DNA from: Clavaria fumosa
Lineage: Eukaryota > Basidiomycota > Agaricomycetes > Agaricales > Clavariaceae
DNA: 64,000 nucleotides
Direction of reading: 5' to 3'
Assembly: GCA_951802425.1 (NCBI GenBank)
Contig: OX637805.1
Location: 1,612,001-1,676,000 of the forward strand
Below, piece by piece: positions 1 to 63,425 of this stretch (its first letter is position 1; each line of letters opens with the position of its first letter). The notes under the pieces were generated by a model that did no database searches, was not told the origin of the DNA, and was given only the letters and a program-made list of their open reading frames with translations. Position numbers and translations under genes: made by a program.

Positions 1-716
1 CTCCATTTCAAGGATTGGCCACAAGACCCCCAACACACAAAGAGGTCTAAGGTATGATCATCGATGGAACCGCTAATATTCATCTGGTATATCTAATCAT
101 TGTGCAAGATTGTGTTGACGGCCCGATTCAAGCGAAGCTGGCCATACTGGTTTATGAAAATGGTTCTTCCTATGGATATCATTACATTCATCGGCATCAG
201 CGTGTTACTGCTGGTTCCGGCCATTGGTGATGTCGGTCCGAGTGCGTCGGAACGCATCGCTATGGTGGGACTTACTGTATCTGTCCTTCTTGCACAGGTG
301 AATGCATTTGAACCTAATGATGGTTGCAACTCAAATATATCAATTTAGGCAGCATTCACAATCGCCGTCCAGCCAATGCTTCCTGACATTGCCTATGTTA
401 CTATAATGGACATACACAATAACTTCTGCTTCTTGTGCGCCGACCGGTATTTGTATTGTATTCTGCAGCTGATGATACGGGGTGTAGGGTCACAGCAGCC
501 GAGTCCATTACCTTTGCCGTGATACCGGCAGATTTATGGGCTATCTTCCGCAAATCCCCGACAATCTACCTCGTTTGGGGTGCAGCACAGTTCATACTGT
601 TGGCGGAACAACTAGTGCTTTGCTATCCTTTACTTCTGCGTAAGGCGCCAGTCACGAAGGATAGTGCGCTAGAAGAAGTAGTTTTCGGACCCGGGGGCGG
701 GGGCGGGCCCACCTGA
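1..716 (+). CDS. Pentameric ligand-gated ion channel, copy 1 (3' part only)
   Basis: Only the channel half is in the window; the ligand-binding domain lies to the left. Predicted exons are 1-51, 109-297, 349-481 and 532-716. They give the pre-M1/M1 segment, the M2 pore helix, M3 and a C-terminal M4. As read straight through, the M3 exon runs into a stop. Removing a 50-nt GT-AG intron (482-531) joins M3 to M4 in frame, so the copy need not be a pseudogene. The sequence is very close to copy 2 and shares that intron. Family call: the spacing of M1, the M2 Ser-Val-Leu-Leu-Ala core, a Leu-Pro after M2 and the aromatic-Thr motif in M3 match prokaryotic-type pLGICs. The ligand is unknown. Confidence 0.7.
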
Positions 717-1170
717 TTCCAAGCTTAATGTAAGTCTTTTCTACTGCTCATAAGCACCAGCCAGATCCTTAGGATGACTGTCTTGCAATCCACTTTATTC
801 CTTCAGCCAGCATGGTTTGTTCTTGCGGATAACTTATTTTCTGTAGGCTAGGGTATGTCTCTTGTTCGCACATGTTCCTCAATCAACTCTTGTTTGGGGA
901 GGGCCTTGGGGTCTTCCTCAGTTGTGCTATGAACAGGCGGAGAGAGCAAAGGCAACACCCACAACCTACTTCGCCCGCCGCTCTTTGTCGTTGGCTTCTC
1001 CTGTCGCTTCCATTTACGGGACTTTCACTTGAGATAACCGCGTCCCTGAGGAGTAGCGCCCAGATAACGAAAGCCCACACGCAACGTTCCCACACAGGAG
1101 CGATAACCAGTACCCATTCATCCTCTGGCATCTTCGGGCTGAGAGACCTGCATCCTCCGCTGATACATCA
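717..1170. other. Spacer between channel copies 1 and 2
   Basis: This non-coding spacer is strongly conserved with 2968-3434, so it was duplicated with the gene. It should hold the copy 2 promoter. An ATG-led stretch from 872 looks mildly hydrophobic at first and is conserved in the second spacer, but it runs out of frame with the channel start at 1171. I could not link it as a signal-peptide exon. Confidence 0.5.
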
Positions 1171-2967
1171 ATGACAGACAAGCCGTACGACGAGGAAGAT
1201 TTCAAGCATTTTGCCGAATACCTTGGGCCAAATGAGCGCCCCAATCTCTTCGTCGGGTTCAACCACCACGAAATTAGCGAAATTTTACAGGAGCGTCCAT
1301 TCTCCACTAGGAAGGGACAACACATTACCGATCTCAAGGCTCTATACGAACACCTCGGTTACACAGGCTATCATCGTCTCTTACCACCTTATCATCCCCC
1401 AGTCAATTTCGAAGGGAAACCCAGCATGACCGTACAGATTGGGTCACTGAGAATCGAGTGTTATAACAAGACGACTAACAAGATGAAAGTGCATATTGAG
1501 CTAGTGGCGTTGTGGGAGGCAGCTCTGAGCGAGTATCGCGAAGGTGTGTACAACGATTATTGTGATAACACCAATCTGCCTGTGCGTCGTTTACGGGTCG
1601 ATTCGACGTTTACATTTTTAACACCTTGAACTTTGACAACCATTAGACTTATCCAAAGTTACCACCCGACACGCAAATGCATATTTTCAATCAGAATGCC
1701 GTTAGGCACATATCTTTTCTAGAATTGTTTCTCAAGGCCACAGAAGGACATCGCGATACTCCTTTCCACGCAGGAGAAGTCCTAGAGTCTGCAAGATTCC
1801 TCTTCGAATCCGCGAGTCTCCCTACATCTGGCAAGCTTGTCAAATTTCAATCTAGGGCAGTGCATACATATGACGTTGTGACCGAAGGCACGCTATTACT
1901 CCCTTTAATCATCTCATCGGGATGTGACGAATCTTGAACAGGGAATTATAAGGAATTCCCTTTCGACACCAAAACCATTATACATCATTTCACCTCAAGC
2001 GTTATCAACAGCCGTACGTCGAATGTAACAGCCCCAACCAATTTTGACGTGAACGTCATTAGAGATCAAATTCAAGGAGCCAGACAATCCAAATGATATT
2101 AGAAAAATCGTCCGATCGTCGAAGGCTCGTCCTCGAACGAGCGAATGGATAATCGGCGGTAGGTTGACATTCTCTAAGTGTAGGATGCTCTAGATTTCAA
2201 TATCTTACTTTGTGTCTTTCAGAACGAGATATCGACATCAAGCTGCTCCACCGCGACCTCCGTTATAAGGATTGGTCACAAGACTCCCAACACACAAACA
2301 GGTCTAAGGTATGATCATCGATACTGCTAATATTCATCTGATATACCTAATCATTGTGCAAGATTGTGTTGACGGTTCGATTCAAGCGAAGCTGGCCATA
2401 CTGGTTTATGAAAATGGTTCTTCCTATGGATATCATTACATTCATCGGCATCAGTGTGCTACTGCTGGTCCCGTCCATTGGTGATGTCGGTCCGAGTGCG
2501 CCGGAACGCATCGCTATGGTGGGACTTACTGTATCTGTCCTTCTTGCACAGGTGAATGCATTTGAACCTAATGATGATTGCAACTCAAATATATTAATTT
2601 AGGCAGCATTCACAATCGCCGTCCAGCCAATGCTTCCTGACATTGCCTATGTTACTATAATGGACAAACACAATAACTTCTGCTTCTTGTACGCCGACCG
2701 GTATTTGTATTGTATTCTGCAGCTGATGATACGGGGTGTAGGGTCACAGCAGCCGAGTCCATTACCTTTTCCATGATACCAGCAGGTTCATGGGCTACCT
2801 TACGCAAATCTTCGACAATCTACCCCGTTTGGGGTGCAGCACTGTGTATACTGTTGGTGGAACAACTAGTGCTTTGCTATCCTTTACTGCGTAAGGCGCC
2901 AGTCGCAAATGGTGGTGCGCTAGAAGAAGTAGTTTTCGGGCCCGGGAGCTGGGGCGGGCCCACCTGA
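1171..2967 (+). CDS. Pentameric ligand-gated ion channel, copy 2
   Basis: Predicted exons: 1171-1581, 1647-about 1877, about 1953-2013, 2063-2158, 2223-2308, 2363-2551, 2603-2735, 2786-2967. The first four encode the extracellular ligand-binding domain, with a V-N-F-x-G-K-P start of the beta sandwich, an ALW motif and the FPFD loop at 1956-1967. The rest encode the linker, M1 (about 2400-2470), M2 (ending across the 2551/2603 junction), M3 and M4. The donor used by copy 3 after exon 2 has changed here (its GT is now AT). A nearby GTGACC with a shifted acceptor restores the frame, but this is my reconstruction, and the copy could be damaged at this point. A 50-nt intron (2736-2785) is needed to reach M4. 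No signal peptide is visible at the chosen ATG, so an upstream exon may be missing. Confidence 0.68.
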
Positions 2968-3434
2968 TCCCAAGCTTGATGTACGTCCTTTCTACTGCTT
3001 ATAAGCACCAGCTAGATCCTGAGCTGCCTTTAGGATGACTTTCTTGCAATCAACTTCAGGTGGCTTTATTCCTTTAGCCAGCGTGGTTTGTTCCCGCGGA
3101 TAACTTATTTTCTGTAGGCTAGGGTATGTCTCTTGTTCACACATGTTCCTCAATCAACTCTTGTTTGGGGAGGGCCTTGGGGTCTTCCTCAGTTGTGCTA
3201 TGAACAGGCGGGAAGAGCAAAGGCAACACTCACAACCCGCCGCTCTATGTCCGTTGGCTTCTGCTGTCGCTTCCATTTACGGGACCTCTCACTTGAGATA
3301 ACCGCGTCCCTGAGGAGTAGCGCCCAGATAACGAAAGCCCACACGCAACGTTCCCACACAGGAGCGATAATCAGCACCCATCCATCCACTGGTATCTTCG
3401 GGCTGAGAGACCTGCATCCTCCGCTGATTCATCA
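2968..3434. other. Spacer between channel copies 2 and 3
   Basis: Homologous to 717-1170 with small indels. No other gene was seen in it. It is the presumed promoter region of copy 3. Confidence 0.5.
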
Positions 3435-5187
3435 ATGACAGACAAGCCGTACGACGAGGAAGATTTCAAGCATTTTGCCGAATACCTTGGGTCAAATGAC
3501 CAATCCAATCTCTTAGTCGGGTTCAACCACCACGAAATTAGCGAAATTCTACAGGACCGTCCATTCTCCACTAGGAAGGGACAACGCATTACCGATCTCA
3601 AGGCTCTATACGAACACCTCGGTTACACAGGCTATCATCGCCTCTTACCACCTTTTCATCCCCCAGTCAATTTCGATGGGAAGCCCAACATCACTATACA
3701 GATTGACTCGTTGGCAGTCGACTCTTATAACACGGCGACCAATAGAATGAAGTTGACCATTGTGCTAATAGCGTCGTGGGAGGCGGCCCTAGGCGAATAT
3801 CGCGAATACGATGGTGGCATCCTGCCTGTGCGTAGTCTCCGTCGATTCGGCGATACTTCTTAATGTGTTGAACTTTGACAACTAATAGGTATATGCTGAG
3901 CAACCATTGAACGAATTCGATTTGCAAATCCAGAATGGTTATACTCCGGGCTTGATTTTGGGATCTACAACTGGATTTCGCAACACTTCCGCCCACGACC
4001 TAGGTGGTGCACGCTTCATCGTCGAATTCGCGGATGCCCCCGGCGATGGCAGAGTTGTCAAATTTCGATCTAGAGCAGAGCATATGTGTGACGTCGTGAC
4101 CAAAGGCACGCTATCATTCCCTTCAATCATCCCATCGGGATGTAACAGATCTTGAGCAGGCGGTTACAAAGATTTCCCTTTCGACACCAAAGCTGTTGTA
4201 TTTCATTTCACTTCAGATGTTCTCAATAACCGTACGTTATATTGTGTCAATCCCAAGTGATTTGGACGTGAATGCCATACAGAGATCAAATTCGAAAGGC
4301 CACGATGTCCGAATAATAATGTTGATATCTCCGAATCGCTGAAGCGTTCTCAGCTGAATGAATGGACAGCCAGCGGTGGGTAAACATTCTCTAAGTGTCA
4401 GATGCTCTAGATTTCAATATCTTACTTTGTGTCTTTCAGAACGAGATATCGACATTGAGCTGCTCCACCGCGACCTCCATTTCAAGGATTGGCCACAAGA
4501 CCTCCAACACACAAGAAGGTCTAAGGTATGATCATCGATGGAACTGCTAATATTCATCCGATATACCTAATCATTGCGCAAGATTGTGTTGACGGTTCGA
4601 TTCAAGCGAAGCTGGCCATACTGGTTTATGAAAATGGTTCTTCCTATGGATATCATTACATTCATCGGCATCAGTGTGTTATTACTGGTCCCGGCAATTG
4701 GCGATGTCGGTCCGAGTGTGTCGGAACGCCTCGCTATGGTGGGACTTACTGTATCTGTCCTTCTTGCACAGGTGAATGCATTCGAGCCTAGCGATTGTCG
4801 TAATTCAATATGTTCATTTAGGCAGCATTTACGATCGCCATCCAGCCAATGCTTCCGGGTGTTGCCTATATTACTATCATAGATATTAACAATAACTTTT
4901 GCTTCATGTGCGCCGACTGGCTTTTTGTTTTGTATCCTGCAGCTGACGATACAGGGCATAGGATAACAGCGGCGGAGTCGTTTATCTTTGCAACAATACC
5001 GGCAAGGTCATGGGCTACCTTCCGCAGATCCTCGACAATCTACCCCGTTTGGGGTGCAGCACTGTTTATCCTATTCGTGGAGCAAGTAATAATTTTACTT
5101 CGGCACAAAGTGCAAGTCGCCGGACCCCTGGAAGGCCCGCTAGGTAACTTCGATACTAAATTGCAAGGAGTAACCCTCGGGACTTGA
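3435..5187 (+). CDS. Pentameric ligand-gated ion channel, copy 3 (complete)
   Basis: This is the best-preserved copy. Exons 3435-3827, 3889-4087, 4160-4231, 4283-4375, 4440-4525, 4583-4771 and 4822-5187 all have GT-AG borders and matching phases, giving about 465 residues. Residues 1-280 are the ligand-binding domain, with CGYKDFPFD at residues 198-206 (bases 4174-4185 encode FPFD). The second Cys of the classical Cys-loop is replaced by Val, so it is a Pro-loop type without the disulfide. M1 is about residues 294-318 and ends near a Val-Pro. M2 is about 329-352, with Ser at the 6' and Leu at the 9' positions when aligned by eye to GLIC. M3 is about 358-383 and M4 about 416-437. Compared with copies 1 and 2, the M3-M4 loop contains a retained former intron. 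Expected location is the plasma or an internal membrane, as a homo- or hetero-pentamer. No signal peptide was recognised. Confidence 0.78.
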
Positions 5188-8847: not shown

Positions 8848-9638
8848 GTACGCGAGACTGAATAGGCTTCGAGGCCCTCAGACTTACAGACGAATGAATA
8901 ACTTTCTGGTGCCATTATCTGGCGATAGTAACCGCTAGCTGGGGAGAGATATCACATACGTTTCGACATGAAGATGATCTGAAAGGGCAAACATATTGGT
9001 GTAGGCATCACAAGAGAGTGATTTTAAAGCTAAGGAATGGACGGGGTGACCATTTGCATAGTACGGTGCTACAATATATATGCAGTGCCGGGCCATTCTA
9101 GCGGACGAATCCTACCAGTCCGGACACGACTTAAGTTTGGACAGCATCTAGTTTTGAGAGACAAGCGCTGCGGTTGAAAAAGAAGATCTCATTGCCCTCG
9201 TTCCTGTTCTCCGTCCTTCCTCCCAGTCCCAAATAACACGTCGGAGTGCAACTTGCCGTGCTTCCACGATGCGTTGTGCCAAATGTACGAGATGCCACAG
9301 CACGGCTTGCCTCGATTGTGCTGAAGAGAATCCACGACCTTAGTCAAGGATAACGTCCCTTAGATTAAACCGGGGTTCGCTGTGGAGACAGATGTCAGCT
9401 TCACTTGACAACCATGAGCGCGCATCAGCCAGTGGAACGTGGCGTTGAGAACGAATGCCGCGTGTTTTCTTTCCAACATTCAGACAACCCGGAGCTTAGC
9501 TCCTGGCAAATTTGGCAGGACGAGCCGCAGAGTTGTGGACTCGGAATCATCGATGGCAACGAGATACTGTGTACTGGACGACTTGGAACAAGGATGGCCG
9601 AATATAGAAACTGATCTTCGTCGCGTTGCATTTGCAGC
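8848..9638. other. Intergenic, divergent promoters
   Basis: About 0.8 kb between the unknown minus-strand gene and the mL59 gene. There is a TATA-like ATATATATGC near 9075. No gene supported. Confidence 0.45.
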
Positions 9639-10563
9639 ATGTCAACAACCAGCAATGCTGCTTCCTCCCTACGCGCTCTTAAACGCTTTCGCCTTTACGC
9701 TCTCAACGCAAATGTAAAGTACAAACGCTTCGCACCACCCGCAGCAGCGTCGACGCATCAACAAACCACTACTTCAATATCAGAGACACCCTCCGTTTTC
9801 GATTCATCAACATCACCTGCGCCACCGCACACTGCATCTTCTCCCCTGCAGAAGCAGCAGGAACAGCAACAGCCTATCGAGGTCTTCAACCCGTTCTTGC
9901 CTTGGAAGAACCCACGCACTGGTCGTTGGGCGCCTCCGCAGTTTTCCCTCCGGCGCCAAGCCGATCTGGTGAAGAAAGCGCGTCTGCTTGGCTCTGAGGC
10001 GCTCGCACTCCTCCCGCCCGGGCCGAAGACGCCGCGGGGCCCGCTATTGGCTTCGCTCGTCACTGAGCACGGGCTCTCCTTGAAGGTGCATGAGTCGGAG
10101 CTGGAGGCATCGGGGCGAACACACGTGGCACTCGCGTCTACGTCCGCACTCACTCTTTCGCCCGAGAGTCGAGCAGGCGACACTTCGCCCAGTGTGCCTG
10201 ACTGGCAACACCCCATTGCGTGGACTGGTAGTGCCTTTAAGCCCCCGAGGAGGAGCGACGGGCATGAGGTTCTATCGGGACTCTTGAGCCGACTCTACAC
10301 CGGGCGCAGGCGCATGTTCAAGGGACACAAGTGGGAGCGCACGATGGAGGTGCGGATGAAGAAGAGACAGGAAGTGCTCAAGGCCATGAAGAAGACGGTG
10401 AAGAGGTACAAGTCGGTGAGTCACTCTAAAAATCATTGCTTTACAAAGCTCGTTTTCCTGAGCCCTCTGTTACTCTTTATTTCCATTTTATTAGTACACG
10501 CACAGAGTCAAACCAAATCCGCTCCGGCCCAGAGGCGGGAAGCCACAAAAATTGCCCTTCTAA
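9639..10563 (+). CDS. MRPL25: Mitochondrial large-subunit ribosomal protein mL59 (Mrpl25)
   Basis: Two exons, 9639-10415 and 10495-10563, give about 281 residues. The N-terminus is rich in Arg, Ala and Ser, as expected for mitochondrial import. The family core NPFLPWKNPRTGRWAPPQFS followed by LRRQADLVKKA begins near residue 83. A low-complexity Gln/Pro/Ser stretch precedes it. The C-terminus is very basic, and the second exon (YTHRVKPNPLRPRGGKPQKL, then PF) completes the conserved tail, which supports the splice. The exon 1 frame also reads on past the donor to 10724, but that extension is intron and non-family sequence. The fungal-specific mL59 subunit belongs to the mitochondrial 54S subunit. 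Confidence 0.85.
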
Positions 10564-11295
10564 TGGCGCTCAGCTTTGTAGAACACTCCTTGCCGTGTTC
10601 GAACGGCACTTTTTTTGATCGACGCCTGCCGCAGTCCGTTGCGCGACGGCATTTCTGGAGAGAGCGACAACTTTTTTCCTGCATTGAACCCGAGACGCCA
10701 AAAATCGTCACTATTGGTTCCTGATGGCCTGATGGCTCGTGTCGAGCTATCAATTCTATTCTCTCCTCCCATTTCAATTTCCCCGCTCAAGCATACCGTT
10801 GCGTGAGGGTCTTGAGCACCACCGAGATCGGAGGTTGCTGGAAGTCTATTCTTTCCAAGTCACTAGGACTCTATGTCCAAAGTGGTCCGAGCTGTTGTTA
10901 CCGTCGTAGCTCGTCAGGGCGTCCATTTTGTGTCTAAAATTTAAGAATGGACAAGGACATCACCGAACGCGGTTCTGTTACTGATGGTGTGATGGTTATT
11001 TCCCTTGCATAGATACATGTTGGGCTAAGAGGATCACGGCCAACACCGCATCGCCCATTACCGAAGACAGTCAGCCAAGACAGGAAAGACCGCTCCTCTT
11101 ACTCCACGCAATCCTGGTCTTGATTCCTTCGTTTGTATGCCAGAGGCTACCCTCGAAACTCTTTTCTGAGGGCAATTAAGAGGGTTCCTATTCGCTGACC
11201 ATCATTTTTATGCGCCTGTGAAGCTAGCTGGTTACTACGCTCCACAATATCCCCCCGACTCCACCTTGCCCCTCTGAGTCGCGAACCAGAATTTT
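10564..11295. other. Intergenic, promoter of the PH-domain gene
   Basis: About 0.7 kb without a gene. Pyrimidine-rich stretches near 10740-10790 and 11090-11130 are compatible with a core promoter or 5' UTR. Confidence 0.5.
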
Positions 11296-51459: not shown

Positions 51460-53928
51460 ATGGCTGACCATGTCGCCCTGCCTGAAGTCCATGCCACAAG
51501 GCTGGATTTAGTTGTCGCCCCATTGGATGGGCAAAAAAGAAATTTCTGTACATTCCTCTGGTCGCTCCACCTCCTGTTTATGGCAAATCCAATAATCTAT
51601 GCCATGGACCTGGCAAAGGTCCTCTACACCCTCAGCAAAATTGCTGGAGATGGGTTTGCCACAGAATGGGCAAATATGAAATCCTGGGTAACAATGAGGT
51701 TGGAACCTGGGCAGAATTTGTGTGTTAGGGCTTGTCCTGTCTCGAAAGTGATACCGGAGGTCGACTTGTTGGTGACCAGTCCTGGAAACTCGCTAATACC
51801 AATCAACTGTTGAGCACAGTCGAAATGTTTGGTCCCAGAAAATTGTGGAGACGTCTGGGAAGATGTAAGAATGGAAACAGACAAGTAGCAAGATGGGAGA
51901 CATCACTAGGAAGGTCGCAAAGTCAGTAGACAAGATGTAGGATGAAAAGGGACGAGTGAGGAGACAAGAGATGTCGCTGAGAAGGCCGTGAGGTCGACCA
52001 ACGAAGCATGAAGAAAGGAATAGATGAGGTGGGAGAAACAGGTGATGCTGAGAAGGTCGTGAAGTTGACCGATGAAGTGTGAGAGAGAAAAAGATGAGGT
52101 GAAGGAAAGAGATGTTGTTGGAAGAGTTGCAGGTAGTTGCGACGGTGTTTAAGAGTGTGTCGGTGAAGGCGATGACTTTGCCAACCAACGGGAAAACCTG
52201 TAGGGTTCAAAGAAGTCAGTACCAAGACGAAGTAAAGGAAATATTTAGGCACACGAGTTGTACGAGCGCGGAGGATGAAAGTAAAGAGAAGCAGAGTGGT
52301 CTTGGTGTTGTCGAGGTCACCAAGTGAGACAAGACCTATCAATCGCGATGGTTCCAGGCTCAAAGGACGTCAAGGCCTCAAGCTTAAACTAATGTGCATT
52401 AATATCAAGTCTGGAGTACAGTAAGTACATGCGAGACTTATATATACGTATGTACAGAGAGTATGACGAGAAAGGGAAAGTACAGAGAGCACCAGGCGAC
52501 AAGACTATAGTAGTACAGGGTATAACTAGTCATAGAGTGACTGTGTGCGTGTTCTACTAAGGTCGCGAGGGGTAAACTAAGCATAGGTAAGGTTGCGGAC
52601 ATGACCGGTCATGGGTTGCGACCTAACTAAATAAGCATATGTGTAACTACAACTGAGCAGAGGTGCTTGGTCCAAGGCTAATGCAGTTATAGACGACTGA
52701 GAAGAAGAAGGGAGAACATAATTTGAAAGGATACACAGCTTGACCACCAGTGGCACATTTCATCATTAAGGTCACGAGGTCAGGTGAGCAGTCACATGGA
52801 TGGCGCTGGTGAGACAGGTGACCTTGGGTGGTCCTTGGGCGGTATGTCATGTGAGTAATGCTGGTAACACAAGTAATGCGAGTAGTGCCGGTGTGCCGTG
52901 CGGCAAGTCATGTGCCGCTGTAGGAGTCGTGTAAGAGCATGTTGAGCATCGAATAGTGGGTTCGGCAGTGGGTACACGTAAGGTGAGGTGGCAGGAGGTG
53001 ATGCGAGTATGGCAGAATGTTGTGAGGAGATGATGGAGGCCCGAGAGGTGTTTGGAAGTTGGTAGCAGGTTTCAGAAGAGTGTAGGGGGGTTCGCGAGGT
53101 GGTAGGGGGGTTCGCAAGGTGGTAGGGGAATGTTGAGAGGTCCATGGGTGGTGATAGAGTTGTTAGGTTGAGGAAAAATGGATGGGTCCTGACATTGTGG
53201 AGGAGATGAAGCGAGCGTTCAATGACCCAAACGACCATGCGACTGCCCTCGCAGACATTGCGAGGTTGAAACAGGGTGTCATGACAGCACCTGAGTTCTT
53301 TGCAAAGTTTGAAACAATGTTCTGAAGAGCAGGGATGACAGAAGTGGCCGATTCAGACATCCTGGTCCATTGGCTGGAGTCAAACCTGAGCAGGAGGCTA
53401 GTGGGAAAGGTCTATGGTGTTTCGCCAATGCCAGAGACCTATGTGCAGTGGAAGGCACTCGCAGAAAGGCTAGATGCTCAGCAGCGTCGCCTTGATGGAG
53501 TCATCATGCAGCAGAACTCTGTGCGTCCTGCTTCACCTGCAACCAGCCACCCCCTCCCTCAACAAACCTGCTTTGCCCCAGCCCCCTGCCCCTTCCTGGC
53601 CCAGCCACTGGCCCGCACCCCTGCCCCTCCCACCATACTGTGTCCCACCAACGCTGGTGATGCCATGGTGGTGGATCGCACCCGTGCCCCTGGAGTGTTG
53701 TGCACCTGCTTCCGATGTGGCCAAGCTGGTCACATGGTGAGAGATTGCCTGCTCCAGGACACGTGTCCGCAGATCCCGAGACCACAGGTCTGTGCCATGG
53801 AAAGCCAGGTACATAGTGCAGAGGACTATGAGAATGAGATTGCACTGCTCCAAGACTGCCTGGAGTTGCTCAAGAGAGAGAAGAGGGCTCCTGTTGAGGA
53901 GCTGGATTTTGGAGACGAGGCCCAGTGA
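51460..53928 (+). pseudogene. gag of gypsy element 1, split by solo LTR B
   Basis: The first part (51460-51722) encodes the capsid start ADHVALPEVHATRLDLVVAP through LHLLFMANPI. It is interrupted by solo LTR B and resumes at 53195 with VEEMKRAFNDPNDHATALAD and GVSPMPETYVQWKALAERLD. It ends with the nucleocapsid zinc knuckle CFRCGQAGHMVRDC and an acidic tail, stop at 53926. A TGA lies in frame at 53323-53325; element 2 has the same stop at the same codon. Confidence 0.75.
51723..53194 (+). mobile_element. Solo LTR B inside gag
   Basis: TGTTAGGGC...GTCCTGACA, about 1.47 kb. It interrupts the gag frame between GAATTTG and TTGTGGAGG, which are contiguous in element 2. No clean 5-bp duplication remains. 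It keeps many CpGs, unlike its relative LTR A. Confidence 0.75.
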
Positions 53929-54191
53929 GTCTGAACTGGAGCCTCAGGAGTAGATATCCCAGCCCCCCTCCTGTCCCTGTACCCACAGCTAGTATCCCGA
54001 AATACACTATCTTGAAGCAGAGACACACCCAGATTGGGGCTGAGGTGAAGGACAAAGCAGGAACGGAAACTGCTAAGAGTGAAATACCGAAAAGAGAAAA
54101 GGGGACTAGCAGCAAAGTGGAGCTGACGAAGTGCCTTGCAGAGGTGCTGAAGGACACCCTATTGCATATGCCCTGAGAGCTCTCCATCCAG

Positions 54192-55094
54192 GTGCACCTG
54201 GAGGCTCTCAGCACTGGCAAGGGGGCAACTACAAAAGCCCTTGTCGACTCAGGCTGCACCAACTGCTTTATGGACTTGGAGTGGGTGAAAAAAGTGGGAC
54301 TGGAACCATCTCCCTTGCTGAATCCAATCACCATGTATAATGTGGATGGAACACAGAACAGGGATGGTAAGATCCGGTATGGGATGGAGCTGCTTGTGAT
54401 GGTTGGTGACCACCAGGAGCGGATCCACTTCCTGCTAGGGAAGACCCAGTCCCACATGGCGATCCTTGGGCATGATTGGCTAAAGCGTCATAACCCAGAG
54501 ATTGACTGGGTGAAAGCCGAAGTAAGGCTCACCCACTGCCCCAACACCTGTGCCTCCTCCCCACACAGCCACCGGCCCCCTGCCCGACCCTTGGTTCCAC
54601 CGAAAGCGAGTACCCTGGCCTCAGCCAGTATCCTGGACATCTGCTTTCCCAACATTGGCCCCATCACCATGAACAGTGTAAAAGCGTATATGCTTTTCGA
54701 TTCTGGAAGTACGCCGGACCTGATGAGCCCGGACTTTGCCCAGGTGATGGAGGTACCGACCTTCCAACTGGATAATCCAGTTCCTATCCAACTCGGCTGT
54801 ATCGGCAGCCGATCGATGATCACACGCGGATGCCGCGTAGTGGTAGATTTGGGAGGAATACTGGTGGAGGACCAGTATTTTGATATAGTGAACATCGACC
54901 ACTATGATATCATAGTCGGAACGGCGTTCATGTATGACCGCTGTGTGATACTGGATGTGCACCAACGTGCAATCCGGATTGGCAAAGGGAAGGGGAAAAC
55001 CCTTCAGGCAATGTCGCCCAGTGAGGAGATGGAAGCATTACGCATCCGTATGTCAGCTAAGAATGCACCAAGGAAGGAAGCTCGAAAGAGCTGA
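54192..55094 (+). pseudogene. Chimeric frame with two retropepsin domains
   Basis: The first half is the protease of the element 1/2 family: ALVDSGCTNCFMDLEW, then LLGKTQSHMAILGHDWL. At about 54,660, right after the linker CFPNIGP, it switches in frame to a different gypsy protease: AYMLFDSGSTPDLMSPDFAQ, then YDIIVGTAFMYDRCVILDV. In element 2 the same linker leads to reverse transcriptase. So two aspartic protease active sites (DSG) sit in one 300-codon frame. Confidence 0.7.
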
Positions 55095-55273
55095 CTACAC
55101 TCGGGCCCCTGGGATGTGGGTGAGCCCTGGAAGGGGGGAGAGGCTAACGCCTCTGTAAAGATAGACGACGCCTACCTCGAAGGCAGGCGTGAGTACTGGT
55201 TTAACCAGTATGCTGAGCTCTTTGGGGGAGTTCCCCCCAGACCGCCGCTGTTTCGGGCGGTGAACCACCGCAT
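55095..55273 (+). other. Protease-RT linker of the second gypsy lineage, cut off
   Basis: In another frame: DDAYLEGRREYWFNQYAELF, then GGVPPRPPLFRAVNHRI. This is the spacer that normally precedes reverse transcriptase in gypsy elements. It stops where LTR D begins. Confidence 0.5.
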
Positions 55274-55563
55274 TGTTAGGATCACTTATGTAAGCCATCC
55301 CAAAGTGCAGTTGTGGAGAAACTGGGGAGGGTTGTTGGAAGGTCACATGACCTGTGGCTGTGGTCAGATTACATAATTGTAAGATCACATGACCTGGGCC
55401 TGGGCGCATCACGTGATCCGAGAGGTCCGAGCGTGGGAATGCTGGCAAATGCCGAAGCGTTCGCTATATATACTACGTCTTTTCCATTCTTGTACCCTTT
55501 TCCCCTTATCTTAGTATTGTCATCATGACCTTACGCTTAAGTTGTGTGAGACCCAGTCTGATA
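55274..55563 (+). mobile_element. LTR D, 5' LTR of gypsy element 2
   Basis: 290 bp, TGTTAGG...CAGTCTGATA. Nearly identical to solo LTR C; about nine in ten bases match LTR F by eye. It contains the promoter parts listed next. Confidence 0.85.
55343..55518 (+). promoter_or_regulatory. LTR promoter: three CACRTG palindromes, TATA, self-primer
   Basis: TCACATGA at 55343-55350 and 55385-55392, TCACGTGA at 55409-55416, TATATATA at 55465-55472, and ATCTTAGTATT at 55508-55518, 36 bases after the TATA box. That is the usual fungal start distance, so the transcript probably begins with the last motif. Confidence 0.6.
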
Positions 55564-56137
55564 TAATACTAAGATCCGCCTGTCCGCCCTAGCCTCGTGT
55601 CCTAACCCGGCTAGCCTGGACCCTTAATTTCAAACTGTGACATGTTGTCACAGCTCAGCCCCTATCATCCTCTTCTCCTTTACCCTGCCCGCAGTGTGTA
55701 ACAGAACCGTGCGAAATTTTTACTGTGTGTAGATACACGTGACCAGACCCAGAGGAAGTCTACTGTGACTCTTCCCAAGTGATACTGAGTGCCCAAGGCC
55801 TGGAACTTTGTTTTACAGCTACATACCAGTGAATCATGTAGTGTACAGGGCAAGGAAAGGCCCCTACATAGTCTTTCTGTAGTTTCCTGGTCCAGTGGAC
55901 AGGGCCCTTGCTCTGTGACCATTGTCAGAAGGGTGCACGGGCAACTCATTAGGAGTTGTGGAGCAACCACCTGGGACACCATTTGGGCCCCACATTAACA
56001 AAAGTTTCATAGAATAAGAGTTCTATAGGTACATAAGTACACAGAAGAGCAGCCTAAGAGGACAGGACTGTTAAGAGATTGAAGAAATCCTGAGTGCCCA
56101 AGGCCTGGAACTTTATTTACAGCATCCAGGGCCTGTG
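55564..56137 (+). other. Leader of gypsy element 2
   Basis: Untranslated leader, homologous to 50809-51459. Confidence 0.6.
55565..55575 (+). other. Self-priming primer-binding site
   Basis: AATACTAAGAT is the exact reverse complement of ATCTTAGTATT at 55508-55518 (11 of 11). It starts one base after the LTR end. No match to a tRNA 3' end of the TGG type is present. Confidence 0.7.
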
Positions 56138-57600
56138 ATGGCAGACCATGTTGCCCTGCCTGTAGCCCAACCTACGAGGCTTGACCTATCTGTTGCCCCC
56201 TTTGATGGGCAGAAAAGGAACTTCCGTACATTCCTCCAATCACTTCACCTCTTGTTTATGGCGAACCCGACTACCTATGCTTCAGACCTGGTGAAGGTCC
56301 TCCTTGCTTTGAGCAAAATTACTGGAGATGGATTTGCTGCTGAATGGGCGAATATGAAAGTGGAAGAGATCCTGGGTAGTGGCGAGGCCAGAACCTGGGT
56401 GGAGTTTGTGGAGGAGATGAAGTGGGCATTTGATGACCCGAACAACCGTGCGACTGCCCTTGCCGATATTGCAGGGTTGAAACAGGGTGCCATGACAGCA
56501 CCAGAGTTCTTTGTGAGATTCGAGATGCTGTTCTGATGGGCGGAGTTGAGTGCAGAGAAGGACTCAGGAATCCTGGTCCATTGGCTGGAGTTGAACCTGA
56601 GTAGGAGGTTGGTGGAGAGGATCTATGGTGTCTCCCCGATGCCAGAGACTTATGGAGAATGGAAAGTGCTGGCAGAAAGACTGGATGCCCAGCAAAGGCG
56701 ATTTGACACAATAGTCATGGAACAGACACCACGACCCATTGCGACCCCTGCACGACCTTTCGCAACCCCCGTGCAACCCACCGCGACCTTTTTGCGACCT
56801 GCCGCGGCCCTCTCGCACCCTCTGAATGTGGCCATGGGCCATGGATGTGCCCCTGCTGATGAGAGACGTTGTTTCTGATGCCACCAGATTGGGCATGCCA
56901 TCCGTTTCTGCCCCCTGCCCGACATGCATCTGCAGGTCCCAAGAGCCCGAACCTGTGGAGTGCCAGGTACCCCCCGAACAACAGAGGACTACCAGAGAGA
57001 TTGCATTGCTCCAAGCAAAACTGGAGCCACTTGAGAGAGAAAGGAGGACTCTGGCTGGAGAGAAGAGTTGTTCCAGCCCCCATTCCATCCCTGTGCCTGC
57101 AGCAAGTATACTGAAGTATACTATCTTGCAGCGGAGACATACCCGAATTGGGGCTGAGGTGAAAGAGGAAGTGAGACTGGCAGAGCACCCAACCAAGGTG
57201 CAGCCAGAGGTGGAGAAATGTGTGCCACGAGAGCTAGCCATCCAGGTGCACTTGGAGGCCCTCAGCACTGGCAAGTGGGCTATGACGAAGGCCCTTGTCG
57301 ACTCAGGATGCACCAACTGTTTCATGGATTTGGAGTGGGCGAAAAGAGTGGGCCTGGAGCCATCTCCCTTGCTGAACCCGATCACGATGTACAACGTGGA
57401 TGGGTCACAGAACAGAGAGGGTAAAATCCGCTTTGGAATTGAGCTGCTGGTGAAGGTGGGCGACCATCGTGAACGGGTCCATTTCCTGCTGGGAAAGATC
57501 CAATCCCACAAGGTCATCCTTGGGCATGACTGGCTCAAGCAACACAACCCTGACATCGACTGGAAGAAGGCAGAGCTGAGCCTTACCTGCTGCCCCCCAC
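56138..57600 (+). pseudogene. gag-protease region of gypsy element 2, with stops
   Basis: Capsid from ATG 56138 (ADHVALPVAQPTRLDLSVAP), then TGA at 56534-56536, continued capsid with GVSPMPETYGEWKVLAERLD, and a zinc knuckle broken by TGA at 56876-56878 (CF-stop-CHQIGHAIRFC). Protease follows in another frame from about 56,990: ALVDSGCTNCFMDLEWAKRV, then LLGKIQSHKVILGHDWL. At least one frameshift lies near 56,980. Confidence 0.75.
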
Positions 57601-57601
57601 A

Positions 57602-59935
57602 GTGTTCCCCATCCCCTCGAGCCCCTGCACCCCCGAAAACGAGTACCCTCGCATCCACGAGTATTCTGGACACCTGTTTTCCCAACTCTGGCCCAGCCGC
57701 TACCCTTTGGTTTTTAGTGAAGCGAAGTGGGATGAGCTTCCCTGCTCCAGACCGGACTTCGATATTAAAATCGAGTTCAAAAAGGACCCAGAGCACCTCT
57801 CCTCCAAGCTATACTCACTGACACGGCAGGAGATGGTGGAGATGAACCATTGGGTGGATGAGCAGCTTGCTTCTGGACGAATCCAGCCCTCAAAATCCCC
57901 GTATGCCAGCCCCTTCTTCTTCAAACATGAGAAGGACAAGCTGCGGCCAATTATCGACTACTCAAGACTGAATGCACACCTGGTCAAGGACAAGTACCCC
58001 CTTTCCCGCATCCGAGACACAGTGGATGTGCTTAAGGGAGCATTGATCTACTCTAAGATTGATGCAAAGGGAGGTTTCCCATCCATGCAGGTCTGGCCAG
58101 AGCACCAGCACCGCTGTGCCTTCTTGACACCTCGTGGACTCTTTGAACCTGCAGTTATGTGGTTTGGACTACAGAATGCCCCTGCTACCTTCCAACGCTT
58201 CATGAATCATGTGTTGAGGGAGGAGATTGCAGGAGGACATGTGAGGGCCTATGTGGATGATGTCATTGTGTTTGCAGAGGACTTGGCTACACACCGGTAC
58301 TGGATGGATCGAGTCTTGAGGAAGTTTGGAGAGAATGGGTTGTGTCTCAAACTCAGTAAATGCGAGTTTGAGAAGAGTGAGATCATCTTCCTGGGGATGA
58401 AGATCTCTCACAACCGGCTAGAGCACGACCCAGCCAAGGGTGCAGCAGTCCGAGATTGGCCACATCCTAGGAATGTGAAGGATGTCCAGAGGTTCAATGG
58501 GATGTTGAACTACCTCCACCAGCACATCCCAAATCTTTCTGCTCGGGCAAAGCCACTCTTCTGGCTGACTGGAAATGTTCCATGGAAATGGGAGGAGGAG
58601 GAGGAAGCAGCCTTCCGAGATCTCCGTCAGGCACTTGTATCAGCCCCAGTCTTGGCTCTGCCTCAGGACAAAGGTAGATGGAAGGTAGAGACAGATGCGA
58701 GTAACCTGGCGACTGGTGGAGTGCTCTCACAGCAGCAGATGGATGGAACCTGGAGAGTTGTTGACTATATCTCCAAGGCCCTCACTGCAGCTGAGAAGAA
58801 CTATGATGTGTATGACAAGGAGTTCTTGGCTGTGATTCGGGCACTTCATGAGTGGCGGGCGTACCTCATTGGAGCGGATGAGACAATTGAGATCTGGACA
58901 GACCATGCGAACCTCCACTACTTCCGGAAGCCCCAGAAGTTGAAACCGAGGCAGATCCATTGGGTTGGAGAGCTCCAGTGCTTTGACTTTGAGATAAAGT
59001 ATCGCACTGGCAAGTCAAATACGAAGGCAGATGCACTCTCCCAGAGACCTGACTATGGAGAGATGGTGGAGGAGGATGCACCAGTGCAGGTTTTCCCGGA
59101 AACAGAAGTCTGTGTGTCGTTCACATTGGAAATGGAGACGCTACTCCAGAAAAATAGCGCAGTACACATACAGAAGCCAGAGGAGCTTGATGATGAGTGG
59201 ACACGAGATCGTGCTGGACTCTGGCAAAAGGGGATAGTCACTTGGGTCCCCCTAGGAGCTCGTGAGGCTGTCCTTGAGTTTGAGCATGACCTCCCTGCTG
59301 GACACCCTGGACCCCGGAAGTTGAGAGCGGCACTGGTGAAGGGTTATTGGTGGCCAGACATGGTGAAGGATGCGGATCGGTATGCCCAGGGGTGTGAGAC
59401 ATGCCAGAGGACAAAGCCTGACTGTACCAAGCGTGCTGCCCCACTGCACCCCCATCCAGTTCCCGATGGTCCCTGGTCAGTGATCTCATGGGACATAGTT
59501 GGTCCCCTCCCCCTCTCCCATGGACATAATGCCATCCTTGTCATTGTCAACAAGTTCACAAAACGGACACTGCTCGAAGCGATAGGGCTCAACCTCACAG
59601 GACTTGGAGCTGCGCGTCTCCTCCGAGATCGAGTGTTTCAGGACCATGGAGTCCCTCATAAGGTCGTGAGTGACCAAGGCTCCCAGTTTGTGTCTCGGTT
59701 TATGAAGGAGTTCTACTCTATGATCCGAGTAAAGGCAAACCCGAGTATGGCCTTCCACCCACAGACTGATGGGCAGACGGAGCGGGCGAATCAGGAGATG
59801 GAGATCTATCTCCGGGCCTATGTGGACCACCTCCAGGATGATTGGGCCGAGTGGTTGTCGACTGCTGAGTTTGCTCTTAACAATCGTGAGCACTCCGCGA
59901 CAGGACAGACACCTTTCTTCCTTGATTATGGATGA
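57602..59935 (+). CDS. Ty3/gypsy pol of element 2: RT, RNase H, integrase
   Basis: One open frame of 777 codons. Reverse transcriptase: KSPYASPFFFKHEKDKLRP, the fingers motif, then YVDDVIVFAEDL, the catalytic YxDD. RNase H: ETDASNLATGG, KEFLAVIRALHEWRAYL, TDHANL. Integrase zinc finger: HDLPAGHPGP then CETCQR. Integrase core: SWDIVGPLP, VVSDQGSQFVSRF and the Glu in HPQTDGQTERANQEME. It ends at a TGA (59933-59935), where element 3 reads Trp (tgg). The frame overlaps the protease frame by about 200 bases in a different register. Confidence 0.85.
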   Translation: MFPIPSSPCTPENEYPRIHEYSGHLFSQLWPSRYPLVFSEAKWDELPCSRPDFDIKIEFKKDPEHLSSKLYSLTRQEMVEMNHWVDEQLASGRIQPSKSPYASPFFFKHEKDKLRPIIDYSRLNAHLVKDKYPLSRIRDTVDVLKGALIYSKIDAKGGFPSMQVWPEHQHRCAFLTPRGLFEPAVMWFGLQNAPATFQRFMNHVLREEIAGGHVRAYVDDVIVFAEDLATHRYWMDRVLRKFGENGLCLKLSKCEFEKSEIIFLGMKISHNRLEHDPAKGAAVRDWPHPRNVKDVQRFNGMLNYLHQHIPNLSARAKPLFWLTGNVPWKWEEEEEAAFRDLRQALVSAPVLALPQDKGRWKVETDASNLATGGVLSQQQMDGTWRVVDYISKALTAAEKNYDVYDKEFLAVIRALHEWRAYLIGADETIEIWTDHANLHYFRKPQKLKPRQIHWVGELQCFDFEIKYRTGKSNTKADALSQRPDYGEMVEEDAPVQVFPETEVCVSFTLEMETLLQKNSAVHIQKPEELDDEWTRDRAGLWQKGIVTWVPLGAREAVLEFEHDLPAGHPGPRKLRAALVKGYWWPDMVKDADRYAQGCETCQRTKPDCTKRAAPLHPHPVPDGPWSVISWDIVGPLPLSHGHNAILVIVNKFTKRTLLEAIGLNLTGLGAARLLRDRVFQDHGVPHKVVSDQGSQFVSRFMKEFYSMIRVKANPSMAFHPQTDGQTERANQEMEIYLRAYVDHLQDDWAEWLSTAEFALNNREHSATGQTPFFLDYG

Positions 59936-59971
59936 CACCCATGGAATGGGGGACTCCGCCCACCTTCTGAG

Positions 59972-60562
59972 GTGAACCTGGCAGCAGATGAGTGGATGGC
60001 TAAGCTCACAGAGTCCCAAAGTGCAGCCAAGGAGGCGATGGAGAAAGCGGCGGCAGCGATGAAGAAGAGCTACGATAAGGGGAAATGCCCAAGTTGGGAG
60101 TACTCTGAGGGAGATCTGGTCTGGCTGGATACTAGAAACCTGAAGATGGACCAGCCCTCTAAAAAGCTTGACAACAAGAGAGCAGGCCCCTTCGCAGTTG
60201 AGGAGAAGGTGGGACCTGCTGGGTATCGCCTCAAGCTCCCTCGGGCCTGGCGCATCCATCGGGTCTTCAATGAGTTGCTGTTGACGCCATACCATCCCCC
60301 TTCCTTCCCTTCCCAGAATCTACCTCCCCCTCCACCCCCTACAATTGAAGATGACCACCTGGAGTACGATGTGGAGGCAATCCTTGATGTCAAGAAGGTG
60401 GGGCGTGGGGTGAAGTACTTGGTGAAGTGGTTGGGATACCCAGTGGAGGAAAACACTTGGGAGCCCCGTAGGAACCTCACCAACGTAACGCTGCTGCTCC
60501 AGGACTTCTTCCTTGCCCACCCTGACAAGGCCAAGCTAGCTGGTCGAGATGCCCAGCCTTAA
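59972..60562 (+). CDS. Integrase C-terminus with chromodomain, element 2
   Basis: In the same element, after a single stop and a frame change. It contains the integrase C-terminal KMDQPSKKLDNKRAGPFAV and RIHRVFNELLLTPYHPP. The chromodomain YDVEAILDVKKVGRGVKYLV, KWLGYPVEENTWEP lies at about 60,366-60,470. This defines the element as a chromovirus. The polypurine tract AAGAGGGGGG follows the stop directly before LTR F. Confidence 0.8.
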   Translation: MNLAADEWMAKLTESQSAAKEAMEKAAAAMKKSYDKGKCPSWEYSEGDLVWLDTRNLKMDQPSKKLDNKRAGPFAVEEKVGPAGYRLKLPRAWRIHRVFNELLLTPYHPPSFPSQNLPPPPPPTIEDDHLEYDVEAILDVKKVGRGVKYLVKWLGYPVEENTWEPRRNLTNVTLLLQDFFLAHPDKAKLAGRDAQP

Positions 60563-60573
60563 GAGGGGGGTGA

Positions 60574-60861
60574 TGTTAGGATTGCTTACCTAAGCCATCC
60601 CAAAAAGAGGAGTTGTGGAGAAATTAGAGAAGATTGTTGGAAGGTCACATGACCTGTGGTGGAGGATTACATAATCGGGAGATCACATGACTCGGGCCTG
60701 GGCGCGTCACGTGATCCGAGAGGTCCGAGTGTGGGAATGCCGGCAAATGCCGAAGCATTCGCTATATATACTACATCTTTTCCATTCTTGTACCCTTTTC
60801 CCCTTATCTTAGTATTGTTGTCATGACCTTATGCTTAAGTTGTGTGAGACCCAGTCTGATA
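60574..60861 (+). mobile_element. LTR F, 3' LTR of gypsy element 2
   Basis: 288 bp, same subtype as D. Its right flank is not a duplication of the left flank of D but runs directly into reverse transcriptase of element 3. The pair is therefore rearranged. Confidence 0.8.
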
Positions 60862-63425
60862 CTCCCCCTCATCCGAGACACCATGGATGTGTTAAAGGGG
60901 GTGACCATCTATTCCAAGATTGATGTGAAGGGAGGTTTCCCATCGATGCAGGTCTGGCCAGAACATCAGCACTGCTGTGCTTTCCTAATGCCTTGTGGAC
61001 TCTTCGAACTGGCAGTTATGTGGTTTGGGCTGCAGAATGCACCTGCAACCTTCCAGTGCTTCATGAACCATGTGTTGAGGGAAGAGATTGCAGGGGGGCA
61101 TGTCCGAGCCTATGTTGACGATGTTATAGTGTTTGCAGAGGATTTGGCTACACACCAGTATTGGATGGATTGGGTCTTGAGGAAGTTTGGGGAGAATGGG
61201 CTGTGTCTCAGACTCAGCAAGTGCGAGTTTGAGAAGAGTGAGGTCTTCTTCCTGGGATGAAGATCTCCCACAACCATCTGGAGCATGACCCAGCTAAAGG
61301 TGTGGTGATCCATAACTGGCCCAGACTGAAGAATGTGAAAGAGGTACAAAGATTCGGCAGGATGCCGAACTACCTCTGCCGGCACATCCCGAACCTCTCT
61401 GCCTGGGCAAAGCCACTCTTCCGGCTGACAGGGAAGGTCCTGTGGAGATGGGAGGAGAAGGAGGAAGCAGCCTTCCGAGATCTCCACCTGGCACTAGTAT
61501 CAGCCCTGGTCTTGGCTCTACCACAAGACAAAGGGAGATGGAAGGTAGAAACAGATGCAAACAACTTGGCGACTGGAGGAGTTCTCTCACAGCAGCAGGT
61601 GGATGGGACTTGGAGAGTTGTAGACTATATCTCCAAAGCCCTCACCGCAGCTGAGAAGAATTACAATGTGTATGACAAGGAGTTCCTGGCTGTAATCTGG
61701 GCACTATGCGAGTGGCGGGCTTACCTGATTGGGGTGGAAGAGACTATCAAAATCTGGATGGACCATGCTAACCTCCAGTACTTCTGGAAGCCCCAGAAGT
61801 TGAAACCGAGGCAGGTCCATTGGGTTGGAGAGCTCCAATGCTTTGACTTCAAGATCAAGTACTGTACTGGGAAGTCAAACACAAAAGCTGATGCACTCTC
61901 ACGGAGGCCAGATTATGGAGAGATGGTGGAGGAGGATGCACCAGTACAGGTCTTCCCAGAGGCTGAGACCCGGACATCATTCACATCGGAGATGGAGATG
62001 CTACTCCAGAAAAACAGTGCAGTACATGTGCAGAAGCCAGAGGAGCTTGATGATGAGTGGACAAGAGATCGGATGGGACTCTGGCAGAAGGCAGAAATCA
62101 CATGGGTACCCCCAGAAGCATGTGAGGCAGTGCTCACCTTTGAGCATGACCTCCCCATCGCAGGGCACCCTGGTCCATGGAAGCTGAGGGTGGCTCTGTT
62201 GAGGTCCTACTGGTGGGTGGGCATGGTGAAGGATTCCAATTGGTATGCAGGTGGATGCGAGACATGCCAATGAATCAAGCCTGATCGTACCAGGCATGCT
62301 GCTCCGCTCCATCTGCACCCTGTCCCTGAGAGCCCCTGGGCAGTCATCTCTTGGGACATTGTTGGGCCTTTCTCCCTCTCACGTGGTCACAATGCGATCC
62401 TTGTCATTGTCAACAAGTTTACAAAATGAACTCTCATCGAAGCTATTGGCCTTGACCTCATGGGACTTGGTACTGCTCGGATCCTTCAAGACTGGGTCTT
62501 CCACGACCATGGAGTTCCACAGAAAGTTGTGAGTGACTGGGGAACCCAATTTGTGTCCAGATTCATGAGGGAGTTCTATGGGATGATTGGGGTTAAGGTG
62601 AACCCGAGCACTGCCTTCCACCCACAAACAGATGGACAGACAGAGCAGGTCAATCAGGAGGTTGAAGTGTATCTCTGGGCCTATGTTGACCATCTGCAGG
62701 ATGATTGGGCAGAGTGGCTATCCACAGCTGAGTTCGCACTCAATAACCATGAGCACTCGGCCACCAGATTCACACCTTTCTATCTGGAGTATGGCTGGCA
62801 CCCTTGGAATGGCAGTATCCAGCCGCCTTCTGAGGTGAACCCTGCAGCAGACAAGTGGATGGCCAAGCTCACGGAATCCCGAAGAGCAGCCAGGGAAGCA
62901 ATGGGGAAGGTGGCAGATGCGATGAAGGCCAGCTATGATAAGGGAAAGTGCCCGAGTTGTGAATACTCGAAGGGGGACTTAGTCTGGCTGGATACTCAGA
63001 ACCTGAAGATGGATCAACCATCCAAGAAGCTTGACAACAAGTGGGCTGGACCCTTCACTATCGAAGAGAAGGTTGGACCAGCAGCGTACCAACTCAAGCT
63101 CCCCTGAGCATGGCACATTCACTGGGTTTTCAATGAGTTGCTACTCACCCTGTATATTGCCCCCTCTTTTCCTTCCCAGAACTTGCCTCCACCCCCACCC
63201 CCCATGATTGACGATGACCACTTGGAGTATGATGTGGAGGCAATTCTTGATGTCAAGAAGGTTGGACAGGGAGTGAAGTATTTGGTGAAGTGGTTGGGAT
63301 ACCCTGCAGAGGAGAACACCTGGGAATCTTGTCACAACCTCACTAATGTTGCACTGCTGCTCCAAGACTTCTTCCAGCAATACCCTGACAAGGTGAAGTT
63401 GGCAGGTCAAGACGCCCAGCCTTAA
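60862..63425 (+). pseudogene. 5'-truncated pol of gypsy element 3, decayed
   Basis: Starts inside RT (IRDTMDVLKGVTIYSKIDVK), without LTR, gag or protease. YVDD is present (AYVDDVIVFAEDL). A frameshift lies at about 61,258 (one base lost compared with element 2), and stops lie at 62271, 62427 and 63105. RNase H, integrase and a chromodomain (YDVEAILDVKKVGQGVKYLV, then KWLGYPAEENTWES) follow in order. The end is at 63425, followed by a polypurine tract. Confidence 0.8.

Follow-up and report, generated by a model that had tools for sequence, protein, structure and literature searches.

A highly diverged tandem gene family with homology to pentameric ligand-gated ion channels in the fungus Clavaria fumosa

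Locus and gene structure

The DNA analyzed here, called the window, is a stretch of 64,000 nucleotides (C12:1612001-1676000) from the genome of Clavaria fumosa, which comprises 48.76 Mb in 17 contigs; coordinates without a prefix are window positions. Positions 1-5187 hold direct repeat units spaced by 2254 and 2220 bases, each with the structure of one seven-exon gene, and contain copies 2 and 3 whole and only the 3' part of copy 1 (Table 1). Copy 1 starts 1107 bases upstream of the window (L001:8893), ends in a stop codon at 520-522, and encodes 429 amino acids in total. The whole genome was searched with copy 3 (at least 28 matches, E up to 0.1) and with copy 4 (at least 31, E up to 1), and the matches of both fell in the same two places of contig C12, namely this array and the cluster of copies 4 and 5. 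Copy 5, as read by eye, is broken: exon 1 is frameshifted, exon 2 contains a stop, and exon 7 passes into unrelated DNA. A long ORF with a CCHC-like Cys/His stretch recognized by eye (L030:1420-3480, C12, minus strand) adjoins its broken end; this ORF matched no Pfam family and is perhaps part of a LINE-type element.

Genome queries with two bacterial pentameric ligand-gated ion channels (pLGICs), P0009 and P0015, gave zero matches and missed the known copies too, and therefore further paralogues may exist. Genome searches with the Pfam families PF02931 and PF02932 likewise found nothing, a negative result that carries little weight because these searches are blind to introns and because, in 14 control genomes, PF02931 matched none and PF02932 only one.

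Table 1. Positions of the gene copies and of their principal features
Feature	Position	Strand	Description
Copy 1, 3' part	1-522	+	Exon 5 end (to 51), exon 6 109-297, exon 7 349-522; ORF 349-522
Copy 2	1171-2776	+	Exons 1171-1581, 1647-1887, 1942-2013, 2063-2158, 2223-2308, 2363-2551, 2603-2776; 422 aa
Copy 2, end	2603-2776 (ORF)		M3 frameshift; stop 2774-2776 before M4
Copy 3	3435-5187	+	Exons 3435-3827, 3889-4105, 4160-4231, 4283-4375, 4440-4525, 4583-4771, 4822-5187; 471 aa
Copy 3, N-terminal segment	3435-3686	+	Residues 1-84, preceding the first binding-domain strand; no hydrophobic stretch
Copy 3, intron 2	4106-4159	+	GC donor, as in copies 1 and 2; copy 4 has GT there
Copy 3, exon 3	4160-4231	+	Pro-loop FPFD, residues 209-212
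Copy 3, exon 6	4583-4771	+	Pre-M1 Arg296, M1 with Pro308, first half of M2 with Leu348 (9')
Copy 3, exon 7	4822-5187	+	End of M2 with Leu-Pro (Pro362), M3, M4-like segment, stop
mL59 mitoribosomal protein ORF	9615-10721		Downstream neighbor of the array
Copies 4 and 5	C12:1377977-1381595	-	Second cluster, about 230 kb from the array, same contig

Exon borders and reading frames are concordant in copies 1-4, in which exon 1 measures 408, 411, 393, and 387 bases, respectively. Introns 1 and 3-6 are GT-AG introns in all four copies, and intron 2, judged by comparison of the copies, is better read as a GC-AG intron common to copies 1-3. This reading gives copy 3 a length of 471 amino acids, which replaces the 465 residues of the original prediction. 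A GT donor for intron 2 at 4088 was dropped, as it is absent from copies 1 and 2. In pairwise comparisons, in which one shared event may count several times, 30 of the 33 indels in exons 1-6 have lengths divisible by three (the remainder occur in one pair and sum to 15), as against 9 of 25 in introns. The alignments thus indicate that frame-keeping in the exons is more than chance.

Homology to pLGICs

The best Pfam family for all four copies is PF02932, with E values of 0.0047, 0.011, 0.086, and 0.12 for copies 1, 2, 3, and 4, respectively, and scores of 13.0-17.6 bits that lie under the curated cut-off of 28.1, while PF02931 gave no match with E up to 10. The original prediction had put these two families forward as a check, and by that check the support is weak: PF02932 leads in every copy, below its cut-off, and PF02931 does not appear. 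Among PDB sequences, copy 3 gave two matches with E up to 10, both of them pLGICs (best E 0.043), and a profile of the four copies gave 29 at the same limit (best E 0.29), consisting of 28 pLGICs and one kinase; these 29 are mutually related and hence not independent, and every PDB match is weak taken singly.

Profile-profile comparison was made with a set of 14 pLGICs found with GLIC, the proton-gated channel of Gloeobacter, and three of this set are engineered chimeras (P0004, P0005, and P0006). The four-copy profile matched this set at 98.3% (E 1.1e-14, 255 columns, score 114.0) and copy 3 alone at 97.9% (E 6.5e-13, score 99.2), whereas among 121 controls the reversed profile scored 23.0 and the 60 block and 60 full shuffles at most 22.8. 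In a permissive alignment, copy 3 residues 71-445 pair with GLIC residues 4-318. In addition, a single BLASTP comparison between copy 1, truncated ahead of its stop codon, and the bacterial pLGIC P0015 gave an E value of 2e-10 over the region from the Pro-loop to M3. Pairwise z-scores against P0015 in the membrane part are 15.2 for copy 1 and 12.8 for copy 3. Binding-domain z-scores are lower, at 0.3 to 4.4 in copy 1 and -1.1 to 7.8 in copy 3, where the maximum is with the chimera P0006, so that single sequences carry most of their signal in the Pro-loop and the membrane part. As shown by the profile alignments, homology spans from the putative ligand-binding beta-sandwich into M3. The pLGIC identity first proposed for these genes is supported by the profile-profile match, the 28 PDB matches, the alignment with P0015, and the conserved residues described below. 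The pLGIC superfamily includes the channels by which nerve cells perceive neurotransmitters. That an unrelated membrane protein of the fungus resembles pLGICs by chance, as the sub-threshold Pfam matches and a weak M4 might suggest, is scarcely credible in view of a score of 114 against at most 23 in the controls and of the predominance of pLGICs among the PDB matches.

Searches of a protein database found no match to copy 3 with E up to 0.001 among the 7999 candidates scored, and none to the four-copy profile with E up to 10 among 7998. Because this database contains nr and UniRef entries, close relatives seem to be absent from it, and distant ones may be missed by such searches.

Conserved residues and membrane segments

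According to a broad survey (Jaiteh et al., 2016; PMC4795631), the most conserved residues of pLGICs are the Phe, Pro, and Asp of the Pro-loop, the Trp of beta-9, the pre-M1 Arg, the Pro of M1, and the Pro between M2 and M3. All seven are found at aligned places in all four copies. The motif FPFD, beginning at residue 230 in copy 1, 223 in copy 2, 209 in copy 3, and 219 in copy 4, agrees with the F/YPxD form of the Pro-loop, and Trp255, Arg296, Pro308, and Pro362 of copy 3 align with Trp160, Arg192, Pro204, and Pro247 of GLIC, with equivalents in copies 1, 2, and 4. The cysteine pair that bounds the loop in the Cys-loop subgroup is absent from all four copies, as the original prediction of a Cys-less Pro-loop type had it. 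As far as sequence can tell, the family is a member of the pLGIC superfamily by descent and lies outside the Cys-loop receptors.

With the register counted from the Leu-Pro at the end of M2 and no gap, the M2 9' position is occupied by Leu (Leu348 of copy 3). The same survey gives frequencies of 75% for Leu at M2 9' and 79% for a basic residue at M2 0' (PMC4795631). The 0' residue of the fungal M2 is Met in the ungapped register and Arg if a three-residue insertion in M2 is allowed, and this insertion would place Ser-Glu-Arg at -2' to 0'. Hydrophobic peaks are seen in copy 3 for M1, M2, and M4, and M3 has no separate peak over 1.3. The M4 match is not significant on its own, its score being reached by 11 of 100 shuffles and by 9 of 100 when blocks were shuffled.

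Truncated copies and selection

Of all the copies, only copy 3 has a frame open to the fourth hydrophobic segment, M4. In the M3 codons, copies 1, 2, and 4 all depart from copy 3 by the same single base, copy 1 having the same frameshift as copy 2, and their frames end before M4 at 429, 422, and 418 residues, respectively; no intron in exon 7 that would restore their M4 frame was found in a search by eye. The earlier description of three tandem genes, whose spliced products have an FPFD loop and four membrane helices, can accordingly be kept for the tandem units, the spliceable exons, the FPFD motif, the M2 ending in Leu-Pro, and the open M4 region of copy 3, and it has to be given up for copies 1 and 2 as regards M4. 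Identity among copies 1, 2, and 4 is 93-96% in exons 6 and 7 and 79-87% in exons 1 and 2, from which we infer that the truncated state may have spread among them by gene conversion. As a separate observation, the exon 6-7 likeness of these copies (1-5187 and L030:5331-7095) looks as if conversion had linked clusters about 230 kb apart.

The binding half is much more variable than M1-M2. Identity of copy 3 to the other copies is 54-62% in exon 2, 63-70% in exon 4, and 81-84% in the introns. Over the six pairs of copies, dN/dS values of 0.61-1.16 were obtained for exons 1-5 and of 0.13-0.66 for exon 6; the regional values are 0.66-1.68 for residues 1-84, 0.34-1.11 for the rest of exon 1, 0.78-1.24 for exon 2, and 0.39-2.45 for exons 3-5, some of these values resting on few synonymous changes. 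The binding part is therefore either relaxed or diversifying, and the selection for diversity suggested earlier is not accepted as positive selection, because the exon 1-5 values also fit relaxed constraint. The deficit of nonsynonymous changes in exon 6 has p values of 0.0026, 0.044, 0.066, 0.12, 0.41, and 0.69 in the six pairs, so that only some pairs give clear evidence of constraint on the pore part.

These observations bear on the possibility that the whole family, copy 3 included, is a decaying pLGIC-derived relic that was multiplied by tandem duplication and provides no working channel. The loss of M4 from three copies, the breakage of copy 5, the dN/dS values of exons 1-5, and the lack of a relative among the database candidates scored would all be expected of such a relic. 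However, copy 3 is open across 471 codons in seven exons, exons 1-6 of copies 1-4 keep their frame despite large divergence, the seven conserved residues persist in all four copies, and exon 6 dN/dS is low for copy 3 compared with copies 1 and 2 (the two smallest p values above). Decay of the entire family is thus a real possibility, and on balance an unlikely one.

N-terminus and topology

Ahead of the binding domain lie about 75 residues. No Pfam family matched exon 1 of copy 3, and an AlphaFold model of exon 1 alone was set aside as unusable (pLDDT 38.4). A hydrophobic N-terminus, and with it a signal peptide, is absent from all four copies, the highest 19-residue Kyte-Doolittle mean for starts at residues 1-60 being 0.35 (copy 4). 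The ATG is preceded by an in-frame stop at a distance of 9, 117, 117, and 24 bases in copies 1, 2, 3, and 4, respectively. Either there is an upstream exon outside the gene model, or the protein enters the membrane without a cleaved signal.

These features could also mean that the genes encode a protein that derives from pLGICs but differs from them in topology or function, in which the binding domain is cytosolic and the copies without M4 serve as partners or regulators. The missing hydrophobic N-terminus with stops before the ATG, an N-terminal segment without a Pfam match, and the retention of a long open frame without M4 in three copies are in keeping with such a protein, but an upstream exon might supply a signal peptide, and the pore and coupling residues are kept as in an ordinary channel. 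We regard this as improbable. A related proposal, to which we give equally little credence, is that the copies represent a fungal pLGIC branch of their own, Cys-less, equipped with a sensor segment at the N-terminus and lacking a classical export signal, whose binding domain perhaps faces the cytosol or an organelle, whose M4-less copies are perhaps partners, and whose binding half is perhaps diversifying.

Host context and origin

Upstream of the array are proteasome, RAD52, and F-box-like genes (F-box at a sub-threshold score), and an RNase PH-domain gene, a HIT gene, and the gene of mL59, a fungal mitoribosomal protein, lie downstream. Hydrophobins, which mark the host as a fungus, gave three matches over the cut-off in the genome and none in the 14 control genomes. 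Elsewhere in the window, long ORFs at 53326-63104 carry reverse transcriptase, RNase H, and integrase domains in a Ty3/gypsy-type-like arrangement, the domain scan covering ORF 57554-59932 alone.

A tree was built from 23 rows, consisting of the four copies, 12 database pLGICs (one of which, P0006, is an engineered chimera), and 7 of 16 fetched bacterial genes, with no natural eukaryotic pLGIC among them. A stem of 3.04 changes per column sets the four copies apart from the other 19 rows, a placement that is subject to a long-branch warning. Of the 16 relatives fetched with P0015, 14 bear the names of genera or groups of Alphaproteobacteria, one that of the Proteobacteria, and one that of Acidovorax. 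The P0015 clade was rejected as a demonstrated source, since the score with it is 58, lower than the 114 obtained with the mixed set of 14.

In this small sample, the strongest match of any single pair is with a bacterial pLGIC, P0015, as a recent bacterial transfer or contamination of the assembly would predict. Nevertheless, each gene has six introns, the contig is 2.64 Mb long, the array has RAD52, proteasome, F-box-like, and mL59 genes as neighbors, and the four copies stand on their long stem outside all other rows, which together make such an origin very improbable; these points bear on a recent and not on an old transfer.

Jaiteh et al. (2016) report that pLGICs were undetected in Fungi (PMC4795631), a 2021 review (PMC8634148) restates this absence, and a 2024 paper on diatoms (PMC11085791) belongs to the related literature. 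Searches of open-licence papers showed no report of a fungal pLGIC among the entries listed, and one may exist elsewhere. A fungal member, even in a single lineage, alters the picture given by the 2016 survey and raises the question of loss in most fungi or gain by one lineage. It would also offer a non-animal channel for experimental ligand searches. Furthermore, the Pfam scores below cut-off suggest that other fungal members may have been overlooked.

Proposed mechanism

Overall, copy 3 is probably a highly diverged Cys-less (Pro-loop) fungal pLGIC subunit, with the other copies as its truncated or broken relatives. By analogy with the known family, five subunits would surround a pore lined by M2, and Leu348 at 9' would form its hydrophobic gate. 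Either pH or a small ligand would act on the N-terminal beta-sandwich, Asp212 of the Pro-loop would pair with the pre-M1 Arg296, and the movement might then be passed on to the M2-M3 loop (Pro362) and open the pore. Ser-Glu-Arg at -2' to 0' is a motif of cation-selective receptors, and cation selectivity conferred by this motif before M2, which requires the three-residue insertion, would be a guess.

Comparison with known systems

Compared with the GABA-A and glycine receptors of animals, which account for most of the PDB matches of the profile, the fungal copies share the LPxxAYxTxxD stretch after M2; they have no Cys-loop, and each match is weak (best E 0.29). This likeness is no basis for labeling the protein an anion channel. 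Cys-less pLGICs of protists and invertebrates, likened here by their published description in the 2016 survey (PMC4795631), resemble the fungal copies in being eukaryotic, in being Cys-less, and in the seven residues of its Table 1.

GLIC and other bacterial Cys-less pLGICs have the same domain order as copy 3, a Cys-less Pro-loop, the pre-M1 Arg, the M1 Pro, Leu at 9', and Leu-Pro after M2. Unlike GLIC, to which its identity is 18%, copy 3 has about 75 extra N-terminal residues and no signal peptide, the fungal M1-M2 loop is about ten residues longer, and the fungal genes contain introns. What is new here is the occurrence in a fungus, the segment at the N-terminus, the lack of a signal peptide, and the degree of divergence.
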